Of a stretch of DNA of 64,000 nucleotides, positions 27,078-55,411 are shown piece by piece (position 1 is the stretch's first letter; each line of letters begins with the position of its first letter). The position numbers and the translations under genes were made by a program. The stretch lies in NCBI RefSeq assembly GCF_037996825.1, contig NZ_JBBNAC010000001.1, forward strand, positions 3,224,001-3,288,000. Direction: 5' to 3'. The notes below the pieces were generated by a model, which was given only the letters and a program-made list of their open reading frames with translations, was not told the origin of the DNA and did not search any database. This DNA is from Bdellovibrio sp. BCCA. Lineage in GTDB: Bacteria; Bdellovibrionota; Bdellovibrionia; Bdellovibrionales; Bdellovibrionaceae.

Positions 27078-28268
27078 CTAAATAGAGAAATTCTTAGAAT
27101 CTTTCAATGAAGCCCATTCTGCTTCATACATCGAAGCATCGGGTTTTCTGATTTTTTCAGGAGCTGGACTGACGTATTCCGCATGCACTCCATCCCAACC
27201 AACATAACGACGCGTGAGACCTTCTTGTCCTACTTGGAAATTTGGCACAAGATAAGTTTTTCCTCCGCCATCGGGAATATCTACAGCCAAATTCGGCATC
27301 GCAAGGCCCGAGAGATGACCCCACAATTCTTTTTGAATCTCCAATGAGTCCTCGACGGACGTGCGCAAGTGATCTGTGCCAAGCGAAGGATCGCACTGGA
27401 ACATGTAATAAGGCTTCACACGCAAGAACAACAGACGACGACTGAGAGCTTGAATGATCGCTGGATGATTGTTGATTCCGTTTAAAAGAACCATTTGATT
27501 CATCACAGGCACACCGTTATCGACAAATCTTTCAAGAGCCTCGACAGCTTCCGCCGTCAACTCACGAGGATGATTAAAGTGCGACATCAAAAACACAGGC
27601 TTGTGCTTTTTCAGAATCTTCACAAGATCATCCGTCACACGCATAGGGCACACCACGGGCATACGTGTTCCGATACGAATGATTTCAACATGCTCAATGC
27701 GACGAAGATCGCCGAGCACGCGATCCAGTTGTGCGTCACTCACAGTGAGTGGATCCCCGCCGGACAAAATCACTTCACGAATACCGGGATGAGAGCGAAT
27801 GTAAGCTAATGCTTGTTCATACTCTTCATTGCGAATGAACGCTTGCTCTTGTCCCGTAAAATGTTTGCGCGTGCAGAAACGGCAATAGACACTGCAAATA
27901 TCCGTAATCAAAAACAACACGCGATCGGAATAGCGATGAATCACGCGAGGTGCGGGATTGTTTTTTCTTTCTCCTAAAGGATCGAGCATTTGTTGCGCAC
28001 CGTCTTCGATTTCAAAACGATGAGGCATCAGAATCTGACGAATGGAATCGCCCGGCTCCCCTGCAAGACTTGCGTAGTACGGTGTCGTACGAATATTAAA
28101 AAGTTCTTTCCCTTCCGCAAACGCCGCCTTTTCATCTTGAGACAACTCAAAATGTTTTTCGAAATCCGTTTGTGATTTAAGAGAATGGCGAAGCTGCCAA
28201 GTCCAATTATTCCAATCAGACTCTGCGATATGTTCTGGCTTAGGGCTTCGAGGGAAATGAAACTTCAC
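27078..28268 (-). CDS. kamA: Lysine 2,3-aminomutase (radical SAM, PLP)
   Basis: Interconverts L-lysine and L-beta-lysine through a radical mechanism. The 396 residues fit KamA (longer than the EF-P modifying EpmB). The [4Fe-4S] motif is C125-SVY-C129-RF-C132, followed by TRKHFTG. The PLP-binding Lys is K337 in DIPDGGGKTYLVPNF. The C-terminal extension after K337 is about 60 residues, as in true aminomutases. Beta-lysine can serve as an osmolyte, catabolic intermediate or precursor; no partner gene is adjacent, so the pathway is unclear. Confidence 0.88.
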   Translation of the reverse strand: MKFHFPRSPKPEHIAESDWNNWTWQLRHSLKSQTDFEKHFELSQDEKAAFAEGKELFNIRTTPYYASLAGEPGDSIRQILMPHRFEIEDGAQQMLDPLGERKNNPAPRVIHRYSDRVLFLITDICSVYCRFCTRKHFTGQEQAFIRNEEYEQALAYIRSHPGIREVILSGGDPLTVSDAQLDRVLGDLRRIEHVEIIRIGTRMPVVCPMRVTDDLVKILKKHKPVFLMSHFNHPRELTAEAVEALERFVDNGVPVMNQMVLLNGINNHPAIIQALSRRLLFLRVKPYYMFQCDPSLGTDHLRTSVEDSLEIQKELWGHLSGLAMPNLAVDIPDGGGKTYLVPNFQVGQEGLTRRYVGWDGVHAEYVSPAPEKIRKPDASMYEAEWASLKDSKNFSI

Positions 28269-38852: not shown

Positions 38853-41800
38853 TTAAAGAGGATCTATGAAAAGATCCAAAGTCTGACTGCCGTAAGCATC
38901 GCTAGTGAAGAATACGTGAGTGTTTGAGGCGGCCCGACCCGCCCACGCACCTGTATTCCCTGAAATCCCTGGGGTATGATTTTTAATTCCCGTCCCATCA
39001 GCGTTAACTGAATAAAGAGTTAAAATACCGTCTCGTTCATTGTCAGCACGATAAAAAATCCGGTTAAGGCCAGGGAAAACCGTAAAATCGTAAATGTCGG
39101 CATTCGCATTCAAAGTGACTAGCTTTCTTTTTTGCGTTCCATCCCATTTCACCGCAAACAAATCCCATTTTCCCAAAGTCTCAATAAGACCTGAATAAAC
39201 GATGGTCCTATCCGCATCATCCATAATTTGAACAGCCGTTCCGTTATTGGCATTAACCTGGCCTCCGGCATAAGGAGTCGCACTGATTTTTCTCAAATCA
39301 GTTCCATCGTAATTCATACTATAGAGTTCATAAACTTCCGGAGACGATTCGCTTAACGTGATAACTCGTTTATTTGCGCCTTCAACAAGACTGAAATAAG
39401 TTGAAGTATGAGAAGTCACAGGCAGTGAGGAGTTCAAAGAGTACAAGGTCTGCGTCGCGATATTAAATGACTTCATCGCTGTTTTTCCGTCAGTATACCA
39501 GTCACCAGTGAGCAGAACGTAGGCTGAATCAGGCGTGAAATCACATCCCGAAGCTCCTTGTGTTGAGTTCACCCCGTTTGTAATAAGATAATTTGTCGCG
39601 GGAGTTACGGCATTCGCGACCCTCGCATCAAGTCTGCCTGTCGCCGCCATTGTACCCCAATAACAAATCCACTGTGAATCGGAAGAAATTTTAAAGCCCG
39701 CAAGATCAAAGCTTCCGCCAATAGGAGCATTAACCGCAACCGGGGCACCACCCGCTGTTGAAATTTTATCGATCTCAACTTTTTCATCGACACGATAATC
39801 CCAGCGAAGAGCGACAAAGCTTCCATCCAATGCCACATCCCAACTTTGAATATTCACGGCATGTGCATAAGCCGGAGAAAGTTTGGTATTGCCCGTCCCA
39901 TCGGCATTTACAACGTAAACGTCTATCACCGAGTCCGTAGTAAGATCACCCAAATACACGATTTGATTCGTGGCTTCGATATATTTAAATGCTGTGACAT
40001 TGCCGCCGACGGCATTGATTGTGCCACTTACCTTCACTGGCGATCCACCTGATGTGTTTACGACGTAAAGCTCTTCTTGTCCTGCTACATCCTGATCAGA
40101 GATATAAACAACCTTGCTGCCGTCAGCAGAAATTATCCAACTGCGCATCACTCCGCCACCTGCAGGATAATCTTTTGTCACTCGTCGTACATTTGAACCA
40201 TCGGCTTCCGCAACGTACAAATGCATCTGAGAATCTACAACGGGGTTAGAGCGGAATAAAATTTTCGATTTGTTTTCAGAGGCCTGAACAGTTCCGACGT
40301 CCCCAGATAAGACCGTCGGTAAGGATAAGTACTGTGGAGCACTTGGTGTCAAGCTTAACGAAGCCACGTGAAGCTCGTTAACGAAGTCAATATTCACGTC
40401 GGCTAACATCGCGGCTGTGTTGCGTGACCAGTCTAAGACATAACTCTGAGAAGTAAAGAGCACGTCATTCTGAGGGCTCGCTATCGGAGGATTTAGTCTT
40501 CTTGAAGAGCTACCGTCTGTCGCCGCTAAATACATGTCATATTTTCCATCAATCTCCAAATCAGCAACAAACACCACCCGGTCGCCTGAGGGGCTCACGG
40601 AAATCAAAGGATAATCACGAACAATAGATGACGGAGATATAGAATTCAATTTTATCGGAGCTTCAGATCCATCTATCTTAACACTGTACAAATCATATTT
40701 CATATCGGCGGCCGAAGCCGGGCTTACACCTGAAAAGTCCGCCGGAAAAATAATTTTCTGATTGTTAGTTATGATGAGGCTGTTTTCTCTAAAGGTTTGA
40801 TACAAACCGTTGCGTACGACTGCGGCATTCGTCAATTTCAAGCGATTCGAACCATTCGTATTCACGACGTAAAGATCTACGATACTAGCCGATGTAGCCA
40901 TGCCAAAGGCAAGTTTGGATGAATCAGGCGCCCATGAATAGCTGAATACATCTGTATTTGCATTCGGGCAGGCGGGAGAAACTTCTAGTTCACTGCGCGT
41001 CTCCAGATCATAAATCTCCATCGCGTAGCAACCTACGGTCGTGCGATCAACGCGATAGGCGACATAACGACCGTTCGGACTAAAAAGGCCGGCTTCAATG
41101 AATCCTGTTGTTGAGGGAGCGAAGCTAATATGTTCGCCGGTTTCCAAAGAGACCACCGAACTTCCAGCATTGGAACCAGACACAAAACTTTGATTATCGC
41201 GGAAAAGCACCCACTTGCTGTTGCTGCTAACCGTATAACCGGGCAGCACAGTTTTTCCAGAGGACATGGCTGGTCCCAGACGGCGCAATCCCGTGCCGTC
41301 AACTTTCACGGCAAAAAGGGAAATGGCCTCATCCGATTCTTTATCAGCGCGAAAAACAACCTGTGTTCCGTCAGGACTGATGATGAAATCACGAACGTCA
41401 CCACCGTCCACCATAGAGCCATTCAATTTTATTTTTACACCGGTTTGAACATTGATGGCATAAAGATTAAATTCATTGTCTTTCGCTTCAATATCACCAA
41501 TCGCAATCACAGTATCCTGATTTGGAGTCAAAGCGTAAGTAGTTACACCGCCCACGGGATTTTCCGGGCTTGGTCCAAACAAGACAATATCGCCCGTTCC
41601 ATCAGTTTTGACGGAATGCAATTCTCTGAGCTGTACACGCGCCACAGAGGAGCGTGTATACAAAGCGCGAGCATATTTTTCGACACTAATAATAGGTCTT
41701 GCGACATCCAAAGCCCACTGACCAGAAATAGGATTTAAACGAGTTAAACCGGTGCCGTTGAAGTTCACAATACCCAGATCGACGAGGTCATCATTGCGCA

Positions 41801-42569
41801 ACGGCGCCGCCAGTAAAATCCGCCCCGTATTTCCATACTGCGTGATCAAGCGTACCGAAGCGACGCCCGTTGCCGTAATATCAGGACTGATCTTATGCCA
41901 CTGAGGATAAGCGATGTTCACAGACTGAGTTGTCGAAATATTCCCAGCCTGATCAAAATGCTGAACATAAAAATCAATGGAGTTTGCCGTTTCCGCTGAA
42001 AGATTCAACCGAATCTCCCATCTATGAGACGCTGAACAAACAGCGAAATACTCTTGCGCTAAAGACGTTCCTACTTTCACAACGTTAAAAGGATCCGAAC
42101 AAGTTCCTGCAATAGGATAGTTCGATCTTAGGGAAGACGCCGAGTAGTTCGTTGCGCCATCCGGAGGATCAATTGTCACAGTCGGCGGAGTTAAATCGAC
42201 GAGGACGTGTTTTTGATCTAATGAGGTTTTCTTCGCTTCGGTTTCATCTTGGCTGGCTCTGATTGTAATTTTGCCGTCTTGGATACCGTCCAAATCTAAA
42301 GACACTGAAAATGTTTTGTCCGCTTTACATTCAGTTGAAAAAGTACCGAAAGTGCTGACCTGAATCTCAACAGGTTTTTCAGTGTGTTCGCAGGAACCTT
42401 TAACAGCATAGGAACGAAAGTTTGAAGATGAGATTGTCGCATTGTCGGTATCAAAGCTTAAAAAAAGTTGGTTTTGGCTATTGAAATCTGCAAGATTGGC
42501 GTCCAAAGAACAACCCATTCCCGCAAACAGACAAAATGCAATGACGTACCATATTCCCAGCTTCTGCAT
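38853..42569 (-). CDS. Giant beta-propeller (TolB/PD40-like) surface lipoprotein
   Basis: A 1238-residue lipoprotein: signal peptide with lipobox FAGMGC, then SLDANLADFN. Residues about 40-230 contain two Ig-like/bacterial surface domains (DLTPPTVTIDPPDGATNYSAS). From about 240 to the end there are many TolB-type repeats of the form 'D..ELYVVN.DGT...RLT' with 'S.DG..V.F.S' strands (for example DIYVVNADGTG, KYDMYLAATDGSS, DLFAVKWDGTQ), enough for several propellers. TolB itself is shorter and not a lipoprotein, so this is a surface scaffold or adhesin-like protein by inference. It is monocistronic. Confidence 0.8.
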   Translation of the reverse strand: MQKLGIWYVIAFCLFAGMGCSLDANLADFNSQNQLFLSFDTDNATISSSNFRSYAVKGSCEHTEKPVEIQVSTFGTFSTECKADKTFSVSLDLDGIQDGKITIRASQDETEAKKTSLDQKHVLVDLTPPTVTIDPPDGATNYSASSLRSNYPIAGTCSDPFNVVKVGTSLAQEYFAVCSASHRWEIRLNLSAETANSIDFYVQHFDQAGNISTTQSVNIAYPQWHKISPDITATGVASVRLITQYGNTGRILLAAPLRNDDLVDLGIVNFNGTGLTRLNPISGQWALDVARPIISVEKYARALYTRSSVARVQLRELHSVKTDGTGDIVLFGPSPENPVGGVTTYALTPNQDTVIAIGDIEAKDNEFNLYAINVQTGVKIKLNGSMVDGGDVRDFIISPDGTQVVFRADKESDEAISLFAVKVDGTGLRRLGPAMSSGKTVLPGYTVSSNSKWVLFRDNQSFVSGSNAGSSVVSLETGEHISFAPSTTGFIEAGLFSPNGRYVAYRVDRTTVGCYAMEIYDLETRSELEVSPACPNANTDVFSYSWAPDSSKLAFGMATSASIVDLYVVNTNGSNRLKLTNAAVVRNGLYQTFRENSLIITNNQKIIFPADFSGVSPASAADMKYDLYSVKIDGSEAPIKLNSISPSSIVRDYPLISVSPSGDRVVFVADLEIDGKYDMYLAATDGSSSRRLNPPIASPQNDVLFTSQSYVLDWSRNTAAMLADVNIDFVNELHVASLSLTPSAPQYLSLPTVLSGDVGTVQASENKSKILFRSNPVVDSQMHLYVAEADGSNVRRVTKDYPAGGGVMRSWIISADGSKVVYISDQDVAGQEELYVVNTSGGSPVKVSGTINAVGGNVTAFKYIEATNQIVYLGDLTTDSVIDVYVVNADGTGNTKLSPAYAHAVNIQSWDVALDGSFVALRWDYRVDEKVEIDKISTAGGAPVAVNAPIGGSFDLAGFKISSDSQWICYWGTMAATGRLDARVANAVTPATNYLITNGVNSTQGASGCDFTPDSAYVLLTGDWYTDGKTAMKSFNIATQTLYSLNSSLPVTSHTSTYFSLVEGANKRVITLSESSPEVYELYSMNYDGTDLRKISATPYAGGQVNANNGTAVQIMDDADRTIVYSGLIETLGKWDLFAVKWDGTQKRKLVTLNANADIYDFTVFPGLNRIFYRADNERDGILTLYSVNADGTGIKNHTPGISGNTGAWAGRAASNTHVFFTSDAYGSQTLDLFIDPL

Positions 42570-46722: not shown

Positions 46723-46875
46723 GAATGCCTCCAGTTATTGCCCGCAATTTCACGGGCAATGGAAGGTTCCTGCAAAGGTACAAAGCCGTACGGGCCCTCA
46801 TAAAAGCGATCTGGCCAGCAGCGGTGTCCGATGTCCGAACCTCCCCAGCCAATTGACACTCATGAAATAGTTTCC

Positions 46876-46909
46876 TTTTGCCCCCAAGAGCTTGTTTTTC
46901 AGGGCAAAA
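46876..46909. promoter_or_regulatory. Inverted repeat in the divergent rSAM/secreted-operon promoter region
   Basis: TTTTGCCC ... GGGCAAAA, eight-base perfect arms 18 bases apart, with an inner CAAG-AG-CTTG. It lies midway between the divergent four-gene operon and the SPASM gene and could be an operator for either or both. The rest of the 247-base gap has no gene. Confidence 0.4.
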
Positions 46910-46969
46910 ATACACCACTCCCTCATCGCATAAATTATTGATTTTACTTGTTTTTATAAGATCATTCGG

Positions 46970-48292
46970 GTGTCTCAATATGGAACGCTTATTGCAGTTC
47001 CCCTTAGCGGTATGGAACAACGACGTTACAAAGACATTGTGGCCTTCAAATGGAACCAAGGAGCTCCCCTGGCTTTCCATGCCCGTAATTTGGAAGTCGC
47101 TGAAATTTCTGAAGAGACTTGGAACGACATGCAAGAGACTTTGAAGTCTTCCGAGGCCACTGAAGAACTCACTTTGTGGGAGCAAGAAAACAGCCCTGAA
47201 GTGAAATCCGGAAAGCTTCAACCCGGCATCCGCAGCCTCACGATCAACGTCACACAAATCTGCAATCTGAAGTGCACTTACTGTGCGGCAGGTGGCGACG
47301 GAACTTACGGAGCTGCGCAAACAAAGATCAACGTCGAAAAAACTCTTCCGCAATTGAAATTCTTTATTGAACGTCTTCCTGAAGGCAGCCGTTTTAAAAT
47401 CACATTCTTAGGCGGCGAGCCTCTTCTTTATCCAGACGGCATTCAAGAGATCGGTAGTTATGTTCGTTTGATGACAGCTGGAAAAAATATCCAGGCTGGT
47501 TTTTCGATTGTGACGAACGGAACTTTGATCAACGAAAAAACTTTGAATATTCTAAAGAGTCTTAAGGCCAATGTGACAGTAAGCTTAGATGGTCCCGCAG
47601 AGATCAACGACAAGGCTCGTCCTACAAAAGATGGCTCTAGCAGCACATCATTGGTTGTTGAAGGTCTTCGTCAGCTTGTTGATAACAGACACTCTTTGGG
47701 TCTTTTGACGGTGCATGGCGTTTTCAATCGCGAGAATTTAGATCTTGTGAGCGCTTACAATTTCTATCGCACGCTGAAAGTCGATCGCTATGAGTTCACA
47801 TACTCTGTGGAAGAAAATGACGACGCCAGCAACAAGGCATTCGTTGAGCAGATGAATTCGATTGCAGCGTTGGCTTACGCCTCCGGCGGCGAACCTGAAC
47901 TTCGCAAAATTGGAGTTTTTGATCAGCACTTTTCTGCTTTGGACAACCAGCAACAAACTGAAAACTACTGCGGAGCTGGAAAGTCATTTCTGATGGTGGA
48001 CGCGAGAAACAATCTTTTCACGTGCCCTTGGGAAGTTGGAAATAAAGAAGAACAAGTGGGTCAAGGGACTCAACTCAATGAGGAGCGTTTGGCTCAATAC
48101 CAAGCTCCCCTTATTGAACAGAACAACTGCCAAAGCTGCTGGGCGCGTTTCCTTTGCGGCGGAGGCTGTATGTTCATTCACAAGCAAAGCACGGGAAACA
48201 AGCACCAGAAAGACGGTCAGTTTTGTTTTCGCACGCGCGGCTTGATTGCTACGGCATTGTTATATTATAAAATGAGCAGGGTTTCCTGCTAA
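46970..48292 (+). CDS. Radical SAM/SPASM peptide-modifying enzyme
   Basis: A 440-residue enzyme. The radical-SAM cluster motif is C98-NLK-C102-TY-C105; GGEP follows (FLGGEPLLYP). The C-terminal SPASM domain binds two auxiliary [4Fe-4S] clusters with C334, C352 and the exact C387-x2-C390-x5-C396-x3-C400 spacing, then C419. Residues 1-90 are extra and could bind a leader peptide. Such enzymes make thioether, C-C or ether cross-links in ribosomal peptides or mature quinohemoproteins. A 39-codon gene starts 9 bases later and is the obvious substrate candidate. The GTG start has only a weak ribosome-binding site; ATG 47012 is an alternative. Confidence 0.9.
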   Translation: MSQYGTLIAVPLSGMEQRRYKDIVAFKWNQGAPLAFHARNLEVAEISEETWNDMQETLKSSEATEELTLWEQENSPEVKSGKLQPGIRSLTINVTQICNLKCTYCAAGGDGTYGAAQTKINVEKTLPQLKFFIERLPEGSRFKITFLGGEPLLYPDGIQEIGSYVRLMTAGKNIQAGFSIVTNGTLINEKTLNILKSLKANVTVSLDGPAEINDKARPTKDGSSSTSLVVEGLRQLVDNRHSLGLLTVHGVFNRENLDLVSAYNFYRTLKVDRYEFTYSVEENDDASNKAFVEQMNSIAALAYASGGEPELRKIGVFDQHFSALDNQQQTENYCGAGKSFLMVDARNNLFTCPWEVGNKEEQVGQGTQLNEERLAQYQAPLIEQNNCQSCWARFLCGGGCMFIHKQSTGNKHQKDGQFCFRTRGLIATALLYYKMSRVSC

Positions 48293-48301
48293 GAGGATGT
48301 T

Positions 48302-48421
48302 ATGAAAAAGCAAACACATATTAAAAAGATTAAACCTCTGAAGCCCACCGCAACTCCGTCGACACAGATGATTGGGCCAGGTACTGGTGGAAACGGCGAA
48401 GGCTGTATCCCAGTTCGATAG
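48302..48421 (+). CDS. Candidate RiPP precursor peptide (39 residues)
   Basis: An ATG-to-TAG gene too short for routine gene calling, with AAGAGGA five bases before the ATG. The product begins with a Lys-rich leader-like stretch (MKKQTHIKKIKPLKP), continues PTATPSTQ, and ends MIGPGTGGNGEGCIPVR. The Gly-rich core has one Cys at residue 35 (GEGC) flanked by Thr, Asn, Glu, Ile and Arg that could be partners for a thioether or other cross-link. It lies immediately after the SPASM enzyme and 30 bases before the histidine kinase gene. There is no export gene next to it. The RiPP role is an inference. Confidence 0.75.
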   Translation: MKKQTHIKKIKPLKPTATPSTQMIGPGTGGNGEGCIPVR

Positions 48422-48451: not shown

Positions 48452-50332
48452 ATGACTCTTCCTCCCTCGCCTGAAGAGACATCCTCCTCCCAAAAACGAG
48501 GAGACTATAAAGCGCTTGCGTTGCGAATTGCCTTCGCACTGGGGATCTCTTTTTTCATTGCGCAAACCAATCTCGATTATCTTGAGTCTTTCCTCTACGA
48601 CTTAAGAGTTCGCACTAAAGTTCTGAATCAAACATCCGGCAACATCGAATTGATTTATATCACTCCACAAACTGTTCAATTGTTTAAAGGTTTTCCGACC
48701 GCGAAAGAACAAGCTTCTCTTTTACGCGGCCTTGTTGCCGAAGGTGCAAAGGCTGTCGTCTATGATTTTAACGTCAGCGAGACACCAGGCAGTGTTGATG
48801 AGAAGAATGATTGGGAGTCCAGCATCGTCGAAAACGCCAATGTTTTCGTTGCAGGCCGCTCAACAGCTTTAAAGGGAGAAGAAAAACAGCTTTCTCTTCC
48901 GGACCCTCTTGAAAAAGTCACTTTAGCGCCAGCTCCGAAAACAACGGACTTGGTGAACTTCGCCAAAGACGGTGTGACTCGTCGAATGATTTTAACGTAT
49001 CAAGGTCGTTCGTTATTGCCCGTGCAATTGGCGAGTCTTTTTAATCCTGAAATCAAGGACGTCGATAAAGTTCGCGGTCACTTTGATTTTTACGGAACCG
49101 ATCAGGCTTATATTGATTTCCACAGAGCTAAAACTTATCCATCCACTTCTTTTGAAGACGTCTTAAATGGCCGTATCGATGCTTCTCGCTTTAAAAATAA
49201 AATCGTTCTTATCGGAACCGATTTAGGTCTGGATGAAGGCGAATACATCATGAGTCCGTACAGTCGCGAAGTGACGGCGATGACTCGCATTGAACTTCAA
49301 GCCAATACGATCGACACCTTGATTCGCAATTCCGGTCCTGTGAAATCTCACAAGGCCATTAATTGGATCTTTATTCTTCTTGCTTCGATCTTAACGACTC
49401 ATGTTGTTTTAACGATGAAGCCCACTCGCGGATTGATGATTCTCGGTGGAACCTTGGCGGGATTTATCGTTGTTTGTATTCTTGCTTACTGGGTTGCAGG
49501 TTTGTGGCTTCCCATGGCAGCACCTCTTTTGACGATTTTCCTCTGCTATTATTTCTTTATTCCTTATCGTTTGATTGTCGAGAACCGTCGGAGCTGGGAA
49601 TACTACCAAAAGAATAAACTTCTAAGCCAAGTTGAAGAGCTTAAGACGAATTTCATTTCGATGATGTCGCATGATCTGAAAACGCCGATTGCACGTATTC
49701 AAGGAATGACGGACATGATCCTGTCTGACAATGTTCAGTTGAGTGCGCAACAGCGTGAAGCCGTGGATACGATCAAGCATTCTTCGGATGATCTTTTAAA
49801 GTTTATCAATGCAATTTTAAATTACGGTAAGATCGAGAGCCAGGGTGTTCAGCTTCATTTGCAAAGCAAGGACATCAACAATCTTCTTCAGGAAGTGATT
49901 CGAAAGCACGAGTTCCTGGCGAAAGTTAAGCGCATTCAAATCGTCTCTGAATTGGAACCCATGTTCCCAGTGCCTGTGGATGCGGACCTTATGAAGCAAG
50001 TCTTCTCGAATCTTGTTGAAAACGCCATCAAGTACAGTCCGGAAGACACGAAAATCATGGTGTCGAGCGAAGAAACTTCCACGAAGGTCGTTGTTCAGGT
50101 GGCCGATCAGGGCCCTGGCATCCCTTCTGATGAACTTCAGAATATCTTTATGAAGTTTTTCCGCTCTAAGAACGCCAAAAGCTCGCCTATTAAGGGTTCG
50201 GGCTTGGGATTGTATTTGGCCAAATATTTTACTGAACTTCACCGGGGACGTATTTTTGTAGAATCTTCCCATGGTAATGGATCGACTTTTACGGTAGAAC
50301 TACCAATCGAGCAAGGGGGTACACATGCTTAA
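48452..50332 (+). CDS. CHASE2-domain sensor histidine kinase
   Basis: A 626-residue membrane kinase. A first membrane helix (about residues 20-38) is followed by an extracytoplasmic CHASE2 domain (about 45-295, with LYDLRVRTKV, VVYDFNVSE and FKNKIVLIGTDLG). Membrane helices at about 300-375 lead into the cytoplasm. The HisKA domain has the phospho-acceptor H407 in MMSHDLKTPIARIQG, and the HATPase has NLVENAIKYSPED, VADQGPGIP and GSGLGLYLA. The stop overlaps the response regulator start by eight bases. Co-transcription with the upstream SPASM/peptide genes is likely (30-base gap). Confidence 0.9.
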   Translation: MTLPPSPEETSSSQKRGDYKALALRIAFALGISFFIAQTNLDYLESFLYDLRVRTKVLNQTSGNIELIYITPQTVQLFKGFPTAKEQASLLRGLVAEGAKAVVYDFNVSETPGSVDEKNDWESSIVENANVFVAGRSTALKGEEKQLSLPDPLEKVTLAPAPKTTDLVNFAKDGVTRRMILTYQGRSLLPVQLASLFNPEIKDVDKVRGHFDFYGTDQAYIDFHRAKTYPSTSFEDVLNGRIDASRFKNKIVLIGTDLGLDEGEYIMSPYSREVTAMTRIELQANTIDTLIRNSGPVKSHKAINWIFILLASILTTHVVLTMKPTRGLMILGGTLAGFIVVCILAYWVAGLWLPMAAPLLTIFLCYYFFIPYRLIVENRRSWEYYQKNKLLSQVEELKTNFISMMSHDLKTPIARIQGMTDMILSDNVQLSAQQREAVDTIKHSSDDLLKFINAILNYGKIESQGVQLHLQSKDINNLLQEVIRKHEFLAKVKRIQIVSELEPMFPVPVDADLMKQVFSNLVENAIKYSPEDTKIMVSSEETSTKVVVQVADQGPGIPSDELQNIFMKFFRSKNAKSSPIKGSGLGLYLAKYFTELHRGRIFVESSHGNGSTFTVELPIEQGGTHA

Positions 50333-51848
50333 GGTTTTGGTTGTTGATGACGATCAGGGCTTAAGATTGTCCGTCAAATCGGCACTCGCAGTCACACAAC
50401 GTTTCGAAGTTGATGAAGCTTTCGATGGCGTCAACGCTATGGAGAAAGTGAAAGGCAGCGAGAAAAAATATGATGTCGTTATTCTTGACGTCGACATGCC
50501 TCGCATGAATGGGCTTGAAGCTCTTCGCCAAATCAAAGAATTCGATCCAGGTATTATCGTTATCATCATGACCGCACACGCGACATTGAACGATGCGATT
50601 CAAGCTGTGAAAGACGGCGCTTACAACTACCTCCAAAAGCCTGTCAGCAGCGAAGACCTTTTGCAGTTGATCGATAAAGCCGTCAATGCTCATAACTTGA
50701 TTTCTAATATCGCGGCCTCTGCGCCGGTGATGGTGGAAGCCGGTCGTAAGATCATCGGTCACACTTCGCAAATGCAAAAGGTGTTTAATATCATTCACCG
50801 CCTTGCTAAAGTTGAAACGCCTGTTTTGATCCGTGGCGCTTCTGGTACGGGTAAAGAACTTGTTGCTAAAGCGATTCACTACAACTCGGCTCGCAAAGAT
50901 GAAAAATTCGTAGCTATCAACTGCTCTGCAATTCCTGAAAACTTGTTTGAGTCTGAACTTTTCGGTCACGAAAAAGGTTCTTTCACAGGTGCAGACCAAC
51001 GCAAGATTGGTAAATTCCAGTTTGCGGAAGGCGGAACTCTTTTCTTGGATGAAGTGGGCGATATGCCTCAGCTTATGCAAGTAAAGATCCTTCGCGTTCT
51101 TCAGGAGAAAGTATTCACTCCTGTGGGTTCTAACCGCGAATTCCCGACGAATGTTCGCATCATTGCGGCGACAAATCGTCCTCTAGAAGACATGATCAAA
51201 GCGGGATCTTTCCGCGAAGACCTTTTCTATCGTTTGAACGTTGTACCTATCTTCTTGCCAGCATTGGCTGAGCGCAAAGACGATATGGAACACATGGTGA
51301 ATATCTTTATTAAGAAGTTCAACCAAGCTCATGGCAAACGCATCAATGGCATCGCTCCAGATGCGATGGCTGTTTTGAAAAAGCACACTTGGCCAGGTAA
51401 CATCCGTGAACTTGAAAACGTGATTGAACATGCTTTCGTTCTTGAGATGACAAACATCATCACGATCGCTTCACTTCCTGAATCTCTTTTGATCGCAACA
51501 GGCGTGAATTTGATCGATATGCCTGTGATGGATACGGCGGCGAACGTGGCTTCTCAAGGTTTGGGATCTGCGCTTCAAGCTCATGCAAGTTTGGGTGACG
51601 AAGAAGATGCGGACCTGGGTTCGGATTCTGATGACTTGGACGGAGAAGAAATGGTTCCGTTCTCTGGCAACGAGAGTCTTGATTTCAATGCACAGAAAGA
51701 AGCTTTTGAGAAAGAGTTTATCATCAAAGCTTTAAAGACGTTCTGCGGTCGTATTAATCAAACGGCCCTTCACGCGAATATTCCGAAGAAAACGCTTCTT
51801 CGTAAGATTGAGAAGTACGGAATCAATGCGAAGGACTACGTAAACTAG
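50325..51848 (+). CDS. NtrC-family sigma54-dependent response regulator
   Basis: A 507-residue activator. The receiver domain (residues 1-115) has D8-D9-D10-type acidic residues, phospho-acceptor D55 (ILDVDMPRMNG) and K105. The AAA+ domain has Walker A GASGTGKE at 171-178, the sigma54-contact loop as GSFTGA at 218-223, and Walker B LFLDE. The C-terminal ~30 residues form a Fis-type helix-turn-helix (INQTALHANIPKKTLLRKIEKYG). A Asp/Glu-rich linker lies around 420-455. It is the partner of the overlapping CHASE2 kinase and would activate sigma54 promoters; targets are unknown. A terminator follows. Confidence 0.93.
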   Translation: MLKVLVVDDDQGLRLSVKSALAVTQRFEVDEAFDGVNAMEKVKGSEKKYDVVILDVDMPRMNGLEALRQIKEFDPGIIVIIMTAHATLNDAIQAVKDGAYNYLQKPVSSEDLLQLIDKAVNAHNLISNIAASAPVMVEAGRKIIGHTSQMQKVFNIIHRLAKVETPVLIRGASGTGKELVAKAIHYNSARKDEKFVAINCSAIPENLFESELFGHEKGSFTGADQRKIGKFQFAEGGTLFLDEVGDMPQLMQVKILRVLQEKVFTPVGSNREFPTNVRIIAATNRPLEDMIKAGSFREDLFYRLNVVPIFLPALAERKDDMEHMVNIFIKKFNQAHGKRINGIAPDAMAVLKKHTWPGNIRELENVIEHAFVLEMTNIITIASLPESLLIATGVNLIDMPVMDTAANVASQGLGSALQAHASLGDEEDADLGSDSDDLDGEEMVPFSGNESLDFNAQKEAFEKEFIIKALKTFCGRINQTALHANIPKKTLLRKIEKYGINAKDYVN

Positions 51849-51875: not shown

Positions 51876-51912
51876 ACCCACAGCTTTCACGAGTTGTGGG
51901 TTTTTTGTTTTT
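51876..51912 (+). terminator. Intrinsic terminator of the kinase/regulator operon
   Basis: ACCCACA / TGTGGGT stem with a long loop followed by a T-rich tail. It also overlaps the end of the convergent gene at 51911. Confidence 0.85.
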
Positions 51913-52415: not shown

Positions 52416-52970
52416 ATGGCTCTCTTTCCATCTTCCACTGTGACTCTTAAAAATGGCCAAGAGGTTTTGCTTCGTCATGCGAAAATCGGTGATGCCGAGA
52501 AGCTTTTAAAAGCAGTCACAAATATCTTTTCGACATCGCCCTATATCTTGAGTACGCCTGAATCATTAAAAACCAAGACCGTGCAAACTCAGGAAAAATG
52601 GATCCAAGACGCCAACGAGGATCCGCGCAACGCCCTTGTGATCGCTGAGCATAAAGGACATATCGTGGGCATCGCGGATTTCCGCTCGTTCAAGGACACC
52701 AAACGTTTTCATCGCGCCAGCTTTGGAATGTCGGTGCATCAAGATTTTCGCGGACTTGGTTTGGGTGAAGCCGTTCTTCAAAAGTTAATCGAGGTCTGCA
52801 GATCGGTTGAGGGTCTTACTCTTTTGGAACTTAATGTGATGGAACCCAACATCAGCGCTCATAAACTTTATCTGAAAACAGGATTTAAAGAAGTCGGTCG
52901 CTACCCGGGTGCTTATCGCTTGGCAGACGGAACTTATACGACAGACATCATGATGACTAAACACCTTTAA
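52416..52970 (+). CDS. GNAT-family N-acetyltransferase
   Basis: A 184-residue acetyltransferase. The acetyl-CoA-binding segment is FGMSVHQDFRGLGLGEAVLQKLIE (the V-x-x-x-x-R/Q-G-x-G/A motif), followed by LELNVMEPNISAHKLYLKTGF, the usual alpha4 region, and GRYPGAYRLADG. ATG 52416 has GTGAGG upstream. The acceptor may be an amino acid, peptide, antibiotic or protein N-terminus; this is not readable. The stop overlaps the convergent lipoprotein gene by four bases. Confidence 0.88.
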   Translation: MALFPSSTVTLKNGQEVLLRHAKIGDAEKLLKAVTNIFSTSPYILSTPESLKTKTVQTQEKWIQDANEDPRNALVIAEHKGHIVGIADFRSFKDTKRFHRASFGMSVHQDFRGLGLGEAVLQKLIEVCRSVEGLTLLELNVMEPNISAHKLYLKTGFKEVGRYPGAYRLADGTYTTDIMMTKHL

Positions 52971-55411
52971 AATAAATTGTAAACGGGAAACGGAACATAC
53001 TTCATGGTCGCGGGGGACGGATTACTCAATCCCAAGTTACCAAAAATATTCGAGCCGAAACATTTCACTGCTCCAGACTGAATTCCGCAGGTCGCATAAT
53101 AAGTTCCGCCCTGGATACTAAACTCTTCATAGTAATCCCAGTTCGTTGCTTGTGTCGACAATGATCCGTTGTAGACGTAGGCCAGAGTTCCGGAACTAAA
53201 AAAGATTTTAGAGTATTCCGCGAGGATGAGATTGCTCGCAACCAAAGATTCAGTTCCTGACAAAACCACTGGTGCTCCAAAGCCATTGCCCCAGCATACG
53301 ATTCCCCCGGAGGCTTTCGCGGCACAACTGAACGAGTAACCTGAGCTAATTGCGATGGCATCTGTCGGAGAATTGTCTATGAGACGTGCTACTGAAGTGC
53401 TTCCTCCGACACTTCCTAATTGATTGCTTGTCGAGAAGCCCCAACAATACACTTGTCCATCTTTAATCCCACACGCGTGTTCATACCCAACCGAAACTGC
53501 GGTGACTCCAGATTCCATACCTTGCACGGCCTGTGGATTCAGCTGACAGTCTCCAACACACGAACTTGCTCCTAAGACTGTTGGATTGTTCCAACCCCAA
53601 CAATAAGCAGCTCCGTTTGATACTGCACAGAAATGATAAGCTCCATCCAGGTCAGTTGCTTGTGTTAGATCCGGACTGAGAGGAGTAAACAAAGTTTGTG
53701 AATACGTACTTCCGGAACACAGAACCTGAGAGTTGCGGATAATACAGGATCTTCCAGAGCCAATGTTTTTTGCACGTGTCACCCCAGAGAAGAATATTTT
53801 TTTGGCCATATTGATGGGCTCAAGATCTCCGGAACCACATTCTCCCAAAGAGTTATCACCCCAACAACTTAACGATCCGTCCGCGTGAACGGCCAATCCG
53901 ACTTGGCCCATCGTCAAACGCTCGACATTTTGAAGACCTGGAATTGTTGCTGGAGATGCGGTAGGAACCTTGCCACTGGCGCCACCGATTCCGAGAAGCC
54001 CGTAAATATTTTTTCCCCAACACTTCACGTTGCCGTCGGTAAGAGCGCACATAGTGCTAGTGTAACCAGCAACATCATAAGAAGAAATTGAGCTTAAGCC
54101 GTAACTCTGTTGAGAAGCGACTAAAGGCAAGGACGCCGCCCAACAATAGAGTCCGGAGTTGTCATCTTTAGCAATACAGAAATTGCTTGAGTTGAGTATT
54201 GATCTTAAATTTGAAACTCCGCCAGAGATTCCTGTCACTTGTGTAGGAACAGCGCCGATGCTACCGCCCCAACAATACACTTTATTATCTGAAGTCAGCC
54301 CGCAGAAGGAATTGATGGATGACGCTTCGATATCTATCAATCCCGCAACCATATTTTCAGTCAGTACTGCGGAAGAAGAGGACATCACACCCGTTTTGGC
54401 CAAGGCACCTGAAGAATTGCTCCCCCAACAATAGACAGCTCCGACGGAGTTCAACGCGCACGCAGCTTCACGTGCTACAGCAACATCAATAAAAGTTCCG
54501 CTGAGTCCTACAACATCTGTTGGTGGAAGCAGCGAACCTGTTCCTCCACCGTCTCCCACCAAACCGCCGTAAGCGTCATATCCCCAACATTTGACTCCGC
54601 CGAGGATAACGGCACAACCGCTCGTCCCTTCTCCAATAGAGATTTTTTCTGCGCCTGATGCAATCAAGAGGCTTGGAGAATTTAATGATCCGCCTGGAGT
54701 GTAACTTCCCCAACACCATACTTGCCCACCTGTTTTGATGGCGCAGCTGTAGCCCCAAGTCATATCGAAATCGAGAACATCCGAAGACATTTGAAGTGGC
54801 GTTACAGGAGTTGTTACTCCGTCGTACATTGAATAGGTCACACCGTCGCCAAGCTGTTTGCCGTAACCGCCCTCACCCCAACAACGAAGCGAGTTGTTGG
54901 AAAGTCGCGCGCAGAATATCATCGGACCCGCTTTTAAATCCACGGCGGTCACCGTGGAATCTGCGGCCCCTTGAATTTGCAATGTCTTGGATTTGTTTTC
55001 ACCTTGGAAAAGATATTTCAACATCAGTTCGTCTTCGAAGCTTGCCGGAGCAGAGGCCGCAAACTCAATGACTAAGGTGCACGACTGCAAAGGATTGAGT
55101 TGCTCACTGCAAGTGCCACCAATTCCAGGAAAAATTCCACCGGCAAAGTAGAAAGGAGAGTTTAAAGACCACGTTTGAATTTCAGAAATGATCTCGGTAC
55201 TACGGTTGAACACTGTGACTGTTCTGGATATGGGAGTTCCGACAGCTCCTTCTCCAAATTCAAGTTTTACGACGTTGAATTGCAGGGGCTCACCACTGGA
55301 TTCAAGCAAAGGCAACTCTTCACTTATTAGTGAAGCATCCAGAGAACATCCCACAAGGAAAACAAAAAAAGTCCCAATAAGAGATTGTTTCCAAAACGTT
55401 CCGAAGATCAT
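52967..55411 (-). CDS. RCC1-repeat surface lipoprotein
   Basis: An 814-residue lipoprotein: signal with lipobox LVGC, then SLDASLIS. Residues about 40-145 form an immunoglobulin-like domain of the ASPM-SPD-2-Hydin type (VFNRSTEIISEIQTW, CTLVIEFAASAPASFED). The rest is a string of RCC1-like repeats of the form 'CA...G.V.CWG.N..G.LG' (for example CALNSVGAVYCWGSN, CGIKDGQVYCWGFS), about a dozen blades. The Cys in each repeat (CWG, C in front) is unusually regular, so disulfide ladders are possible. Function inferred as a surface or adhesive scaffold. Confidence 0.85.
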   Translation of the reverse strand: MIFGTFWKQSLIGTFFVFLVGCSLDASLISEELPLLESSGEPLQFNVVKLEFGEGAVGTPISRTVTVFNRSTEIISEIQTWSLNSPFYFAGGIFPGIGGTCSEQLNPLQSCTLVIEFAASAPASFEDELMLKYLFQGENKSKTLQIQGAADSTVTAVDLKAGPMIFCARLSNNSLRCWGEGGYGKQLGDGVTYSMYDGVTTPVTPLQMSSDVLDFDMTWGYSCAIKTGGQVWCWGSYTPGGSLNSPSLLIASGAEKISIGEGTSGCAVILGGVKCWGYDAYGGLVGDGGGTGSLLPPTDVVGLSGTFIDVAVAREAACALNSVGAVYCWGSNSSGALAKTGVMSSSSAVLTENMVAGLIDIEASSINSFCGLTSDNKVYCWGGSIGAVPTQVTGISGGVSNLRSILNSSNFCIAKDDNSGLYCWAASLPLVASQQSYGLSSISSYDVAGYTSTMCALTDGNVKCWGKNIYGLLGIGGASGKVPTASPATIPGLQNVERLTMGQVGLAVHADGSLSCWGDNSLGECGSGDLEPINMAKKIFFSGVTRAKNIGSGRSCIIRNSQVLCSGSTYSQTLFTPLSPDLTQATDLDGAYHFCAVSNGAAYCWGWNNPTVLGASSCVGDCQLNPQAVQGMESGVTAVSVGYEHACGIKDGQVYCWGFSTSNQLGSVGGSTSVARLIDNSPTDAIAISSGYSFSCAAKASGGIVCWGNGFGAPVVLSGTESLVASNLILAEYSKIFFSSGTLAYVYNGSLSTQATNWDYYEEFSIQGGTYYATCGIQSGAVKCFGSNIFGNLGLSNPSPATMKYVPFPVYNLF

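Follow-up and report, generated by a model that had tools for sequence, protein, structure and literature searches.

The question raised by this locus is what a radical SAM/SPASM enzyme, followed by a gene for a 39-residue peptide, is doing in a Bdellovibrio-type predator, and whether the two genes belong to a known kind of RiPP pathway. The window, to which all coordinates below refer, is a stretch of 64,000 nt from Bdellovibrio sp. BCCA (GCF_037996825.1, NZ_JBBNAC010000001.1, positions 3,224,001-3,288,000 of the forward strand). An initial annotation of positions 46970-48421 had described a minimal RiPP locus of two genes; both open reading frames were found where it placed them. The two genes and the conserved segments of the peptide are the following.

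47012..48292, + strand: radical SAM/SPASM peptide maturase, 426 aa (Pfam, NCBIfam, AlphaFold model, CteB fold match).
48302..48421, + strand: precursor peptide gene, 39 aa, MKKQTHIKKIKPLKPTATPSTQMIGPGTGGNGEGCIPVR (homologue behind the enzyme in 79/79 loci; purifying selection).
48317..48337, + strand: codons of the leader motif HIKKIKP (KH[IV]KK-type motif in nearly all relatives; putative RRE-binding segment).
48404..48415, + strand: codons of the C-terminal C-I-P-V (position counts over 80 peptides; Cys invariant).

The cysteine spacing reported for the enzyme, counted from GTG 46970, was confirmed (CxxxCxxC, C98/C102/C105; C-x2-C-x5-C-x3-C, C387/C390/C396/C400). The start itself has been moved: it is most likely ATG 47012, since conservation of the protein begins there and the sigma-54 promoter described below overlaps the 5' part of the ORF read from the upstream start. 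Counted from ATG 47012, CxxxCxxC is formed by C84/88/91 and the seven-cysteine SPASM pattern by C373/376/382/386 with C320, C338, and C405; these ten cysteines are invariant in 21 homologues, and three Fe-S clusters are predicted from them. An RRE-like domain occupies about residues 1-60. Another radical SAM domain lies in the window at 27465-27908 on the - strand (PF04055, 52.6 bits); the genome holds 13 altogether.

Pfam Radical_SAM matches the enzyme at 62.6 bits. The best NCBIfam models are those of PapB, nif11, SCIFF, and QhpD-type maturases, every one below its cut-off: PapB (NF047865), the top-scoring model, 181 bits over the rSAM-SPASM region, cut-off 340; SCIFF (TIGR03974), 142.6 bits, equivalog cut-off 425; QhpD (TIGR03906), 128.9 bits, cut-off 453. 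As none of the NCBIfam cut-offs is reached, membership in any known maturase family was rejected. The nearest solved structure by sequence is the SCIFF maturase CteB (E 8e-32). The AlphaFold model of the enzyme (pLDDT 87.8) matches CteB (5wgg) at Z 34.5, with model residues 7-423 aligned to CteB 2-450, RRE domain included; this exceeds the matches (Z 29.5 and below) to enzymes whose alignment leaves out the N-terminal domain. The N-terminal domain of CteB is its RRE, where the CteA leader is bound (PMC8326336), and by this alignment the modelled enzyme has an RRE-like domain of its own, with putative leader binding. The Bdellovibrionales proteins group as a single clade (99% SH-aLRT) in a tree that also holds other SPASM enzymes.

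Whether the small gene is real was decided by its occurrence and by its selection. The enzyme gene and the region downstream of it were gathered across the genus and its family, with two more families of the order added. Under a strict rule (KH[IV]KK-like leader, then C(x)P near the ORF end), such an ORF lies behind the enzyme in 73/79 distinct loci, against one for the reverse strand and an expectation of 0.8 from shuffles. With a looser rule and two cases recognized by eye (L145, ...PGSGCRPLGEV; L167, ...GGGCVPVSG), the peptide or an equivalent was found in all 79 distinct readable loci. The median dN/dS of the gene is 0.14 (ten close relatives, 40 pairs), which indicates purifying selection. 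A chance small ORF was rejected because of the 79/79 occurrence, the controls of about one, and the dN/dS. None of the readable loci lacks the conserved downstream peptide, and no stops or frameshifts were met in the peptide frame of relatives; the precursor-like gene beside a RiPP-type SPASM maturase is genuine and selected, as the initial annotation had proposed. A conserved, selected small precursor gene beside a modifying enzyme is one of the marks of a RiPP locus, and the enzyme very probably modifies the adjacent peptide.

The peptide ATG (48302) follows the enzyme stop (48292) after nine bases, and the ribosome-binding site AAGAGGA stands upstream of the ATG, both as previously described. 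The longest reading of the peptide frame starts before the enzyme stop codon in 36/77 cases, which suggests translational coupling of the two genes where that early start is used. Searches of NCBIfam and Pfam with the 39-aa peptide matched no family, and with 8 relative peptides matched nothing but one chance-level Pfam hit; a known precursor family in NCBIfam or Pfam was accordingly rejected. The coding pattern of HIKKIKP occurs once in this genome, and no orphan precursor copies were found in 24 genomes of the genus by the exact HIKK[IV]KP coding pattern. At one locus (L029), two tandem precursors stand behind one enzyme, 16 and 134 bases after its stop, with different cores (...GLSCIPIG and ...GLACIPSGLPNSSSN).

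What the peptides hold in common was read from position counts over 80 peptides of 27-87 aa. One cysteine is the sole invariant residue of the core, as expected of a thioether donor; 77/80 peptides have one Cys and three have two. Proline stands at +2 from Cys (C-x-P) in 73/80; small residues dominate position -1 (Gly 47, Ala 9, Ser 8); at +3, Val, Ile, Thr, or Leu prevail, and Gly, Pro, and aromatic residues never occur; position +4 is Gly, Arg, Lys, or Ser in most peptides and Asp in one, and the PapB-type CX3D donor-acceptor motif is not a feature of these precursors. Conservation over the 80 peptides singled out no partner residue as crosslink acceptor. The Cys is 3-12 residues from the peptide end in all 80, with exactly 4 residues after it in 36, and the distance from leader motif to Cys ranges from 16 to 67, a variable spacing that would fit docking of the leader at one site and reaction near the C-terminus. 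The motif GxGxxGEGC, singled out in the initial annotation, is kept among some close relatives only; the order-wide constants are KH[IV]KK and C-x-P. One clade (L163, L166, L168, L170, L172, L176) ends in C-P-E[RIL] instead of C-x-P, and the L173 peptide ends in CEIVYT, without Pro; these are natural variants for probing the substrate needs of the enzyme.

The two genes are not a minimal locus, as had been supposed, and are instead the front half of a four-gene operon that continues with a CHASE2 kinase and a sigma-54 activator. Its further parts are the following.

46863..46916, + strand: candidate enhancer (upstream activating) region, imperfect inverted repeat TGAAATAGTTTCCTTTTGCCCCC ... 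GGGCAAAAATACACC (conserved in close relatives).
46981..46996, + strand: sigma-54 (-24/-12) promoter TGGAACGCTTATTGCA (score 14 of 15).
48452..50332, + strand: membrane sensor histidine kinase, 626 aa, CHASE2 (34-311), HisKA, and HATPase_c (Pfam).
50325..51848, + strand: NtrC-family sigma-54-dependent response regulator, 507 aa; receiver, AAA+ with GSFTGA, Fis-type HTH (Pfam).
51876..51901, + strand: intrinsic terminator, 11-bp stem then TTTTTGTTTT, operon end (terminator scan).

The kinase is a CHASE2 kinase by Pfam, with all domains above cut-off (CHASE2 88 bits, HisKA 61, HATPase_c 96). The activator gene overlaps the kinase gene by 8 bases; its product has the domains of the NtrC family (Response_reg 103 bits, Sigma54_activat 240, Fis-type HTH 23.5), and the GAFTGA-type loop is present in its translation as GSFTGA. 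Among 67 enzyme loci from separate genomes, the kinase adjoins the peptide in 66, the sole exception being a contig with only 31 bases left beyond the enzyme. The activator is present at 60 of the 67, and most of the other seven are contig ends; at L215 the kinase is present and the activator was not found within the region covered. L143, which is one locus with L056, does have an activator, upstream on the opposite strand. A scan of the coding strand from enzyme stop to kinase start gave no terminator-like site. Genes beyond the operon are not conserved and are unrelated on both sides. In the window, the flanking ORFs 38853-42569 and 52967-55411 (both - strand) encode long, putative lipoprotein-like repeat proteins that resemble, by eye, beta-propeller and RCC1 proteins; neither neighbourhood is conserved.

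The promoter is the only perfect TGGNAC-N5-TTGCA in the window (TGGAACGCTTATTGCA). Its score of 14 of 15 was reached by 0/100 shuffles, both in the window and in the HD100-like locus (of a genome that we take to be Bdellovibrio bacteriovorus HD100), and sites scoring at least 12.5 stand upstream of the enzyme in 51/74 loci, against 1.7 expected. The inverted repeat (TTTCCTTTTGCCC...GGGCAAAAATACACC) lies about 150 to 95 bases before the enzyme start and is kept at equal distance in close relatives, while its flanks are not conserved. We infer that the activator would bind this candidate enhancer and drive its own operon. The first box of the repeat has one match genome-wide at up to 3 mismatches, for which reason no further regulon targets are predicted and a wider regulon from this box was rejected; a search for a symmetric version of the repeat with fixed spacer gave no match.

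The enzyme is present in 60/66 genomes of the family, in single copy each. The six absences are contig ends (G017, G042), three genomes <70% complete, and G038, where it looks like a true loss. Across the order it occurs in 81/141 genomes, and practically nowhere else in the phylum; the kinase occurs in 121/141. In about 30 genomes of the order (loci L179-L212), the kinase-activator pair stands without enzyme or peptide, and 14/32 enzyme-less loci have a sigma-54 site of their own before the kinase, against 0.7 expected; the targets of this order-wide pair look worth finding. The kinase tree follows taxonomy, and enzyme presence needs 5-8 changes on it, which we read as a probable ancestral four-gene operon with repeated loss of its first two genes. 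The kinase-activator pair is older than the peptide and survives without it.

Outside the order, one genome carries a distant version (L221; G301 C81:1-5177): an enzyme relative at 26% identity, a peptide KHVKK...ACSWMSDG, a 208-aa ORF that is nucleotidyltransferase-like by eye, and a CHASE2 protein, in this order. It is supportive of the association of enzyme, peptide, and CHASE2 but not firm, because it comes from one assembly, 87% complete. A search with the L221 enzyme gave no further distant versions at E <= 1e-40, and the neighbourhoods of other SPASM enzymes, checked for HIKK-like peptides and CHASE2 genes, gave only SCIFF leaders and no CHASE2 match.

The enzyme-peptide pair is found, by genome comparison, in nearly all Bdellovibrio-type predators and inside a sensor-regulator operon, a place which suggests that the peptide, once modified, may be a signal that is internal or self-made. 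The reading we prefer, to which we give about even chances, is that of a signalling operon, driven by sigma-54 and regulating itself, that includes a RiPP whose modified peptide feeds back via the CHASE2 kinase. The KHIKK leader would likely dock on the RRE of the enzyme, as in CteB/CteA. With moderate likelihood, the enzyme, with SAM and three Fe-S clusters, would then oxidatively link the conserved Cys to a nearby residue, and the crosslink would lie, again with moderate likelihood, inside the C-terminal C-x-P-x segment or immediately before it; a thioether, as in SCIFF and ranthipeptides, would be most likely. The modified peptide, whole or trimmed, may possibly modulate the adjacent CHASE2 kinase, which is the least certain step. 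The kinase would phosphorylate the activator, which would switch on the sigma-54 promoter of its own operon; such a positive feedback loop is likely. The peptide would in this way serve as a self-made signal, or as a reporter of internal state, for a core regulator of these predators.

The sequence establishes which parts are present and in which order, the selection acting on the peptide, and the class of the promoter; leader docking on the RRE and radical chemistry at the conserved Cys are predictions well supported by homology. Given the enzyme family, a thioether or other Cys crosslink in the product is plausible, and that a thioether would join Cys to a beta or gamma carbon we infer only from the relationship to CteB, PapB, and QhpD.

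The main rival makes the peptide an end product (a secreted effector, an antimicrobial, or something metallophore-like), with kinase and activator merely controlling its synthesis and the peptide not acting on the kinase. RiPP clusters often carry their own regulators, and control of the operon by sigma-54 would suit an output no less than an input. Enzyme divergence tracks the CHASE2 domain no more than the kinase domain or the activator, which also agrees with an end product; because CHASE2 shows no such excess, there is no co-evolution signal for direct binding, and enzyme-CHASE2 co-evolution was rejected as evidence of it. The survival of the kinase-activator pair without the peptide in about 30 genomes likewise suits this rival and implies that the peptide is not the sole input of the pair, which has another input or output. 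Set against this, no exporter, peptidase, or immunity gene was found in or beside the operon in any lineage; no leader peptidase is linked, and the one Peptidase_C39 domain of the genome is far from the operon. The near-universal single copy in the family is unlike the patchy occurrence typical of weapon clusters, and together with the lack of an adjacent exporter or immunity gene it fits a housekeeping signal better than a weapon. Moreover, the peptide is placed with the regulator rather than the regulator with a changing cluster. On balance we regard an end product as unlikely.

In a second rival, nothing is secreted: the Fe-S enzyme, sensitive to oxygen and SAM, would signal redox or metabolic state through the extent of peptide modification, and the peptide, modified or not, would gate kinase or activator on the cytoplasmic side. 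The lack of export genes agrees with this, as do the three Fe-S clusters predicted from invariant cysteines; the lysine-rich leader and short core suit a cytoplasmic ligand, and the widely varying segment between leader and Cys fits a tethered C-terminal contact. However, CHASE2 is by family definition an extracytoplasmic sensor domain, and Pfam gives the kinase no conserved cytoplasmic sensor domain. An intracellular sensor module of this kind appears quite improbable. A cofactor source, in which the C-terminal Cys-x-Pro residues are rearranged by the enzyme and later excised, as in mycofactocin or PQQ, would agree with a Cys near the C-terminus in 80/80 peptides, a core otherwise free to vary, and the near-universal single-copy distribution, but is very hard to credit with no further biosynthetic enzymes in the operon and with residues around the Cys that vary beyond what a fixed cofactor would allow.

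Returning to the self-regulated signalling operon, a bolder form of it can be put forward only tentatively: an order-wide, vertically inherited, RiPP-gated two-component switch in which the peptide would be ligand or state reporter of the CHASE2 kinase and close the sigma-54 loop, with a new single-cysteine C-terminal crosslink, and which could bear on density sensing or on the transition between attack and growth. RiPPs that belong to the core genes of an entire bacterial order are few. The product, if made, would widen the SCIFF/ranthipeptide group beyond six-cysteine and CX3D substrates; if the peptide acts on the kinase, it would be a genetically tractable, self-made signal for predators. 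The presence of the putative operon in the apparent HD100 makes the idea directly testable there. The operon genes were not identified in papers naming Bd3391-Bd3396 or in the attack/growth transcriptome paper (HD100), and no description was found in the literature searched on Bdellovibrio with radical SAM/RiPP, SPASM, ranthipeptide, or CHASE2.

Among known systems, NtrC-type systems with autoregulated sigma-54 operons likewise combine kinase, sigma-54 activator, and sigma-54 promoter in one operon; here, however, the sensor is CHASE2 and the first two genes are a RiPP maturase and its peptide. QhpD, the quinohemoprotein amine dehydrogenase maturase, belongs to the same enzyme branch and forms Cys-to-Asp/Glu thioethers, but its substrate is a protein subunit and not a short peptide, and no qhp genes occur at this locus. 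NxxcA, which is regulated by Rgg/SHP, is alike in principle. It is a single-thioether ranthipeptide of Streptococcus with one cysteine and one predicted crosslink (PMC8326336); the peptides described here differ in having no conserved Asn three residues before the Cys, where Gly mostly stands, and in leader, phylum, and regulation. PapB (NF047865) is a ranthipeptide maturase whose product freyrasin has six Cys-Asp pairs (PMC8326336), unlike the one Cys without conserved Asp partner found here.

SCIFF (CteB/CteA, Tte1186; TIGR03974; ranthipeptides) comes closest. Its enzyme is the nearest by sequence and fold, RRE and SPASM included, its small precursor is adjacent to the enzyme, and it is near-universal in its host clade. 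The initial annotation had seen no match to SCIFF, which holds for the core, where the six cysteines in about 45 residues of SCIFF face a single cysteine and a C-terminal C-x-P. It does not hold for the leader: SCIFF precursors beside SCIFF maturases in the loci collected here begin MKHVKTL, LKHIKII, KKHIRTL, and MKHIKTL, so that the KH[IV][KR] start is common to both, as judged by eye and at a length too short for statistical homology. That the enzyme is closest to the SCIFF maturase CteB weakens the earlier statement further. The precursor stands behind the enzyme here, and not before it as in SCIFF, and the fixed neighbours are a kinase and a sigma-54 activator. SCIFF ranthipeptides have been reported in clostridial quorum sensing (Chen 2020, as cited in PMC8326336), which gives a precedent for a signalling role. 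The pathway works like that of a SCIFF-type ranthipeptide but falls outside SCIFF on its core and on the model cut-off, and the peptide is best read as a single-cysteine relative of the SCIFF/ranthipeptides.
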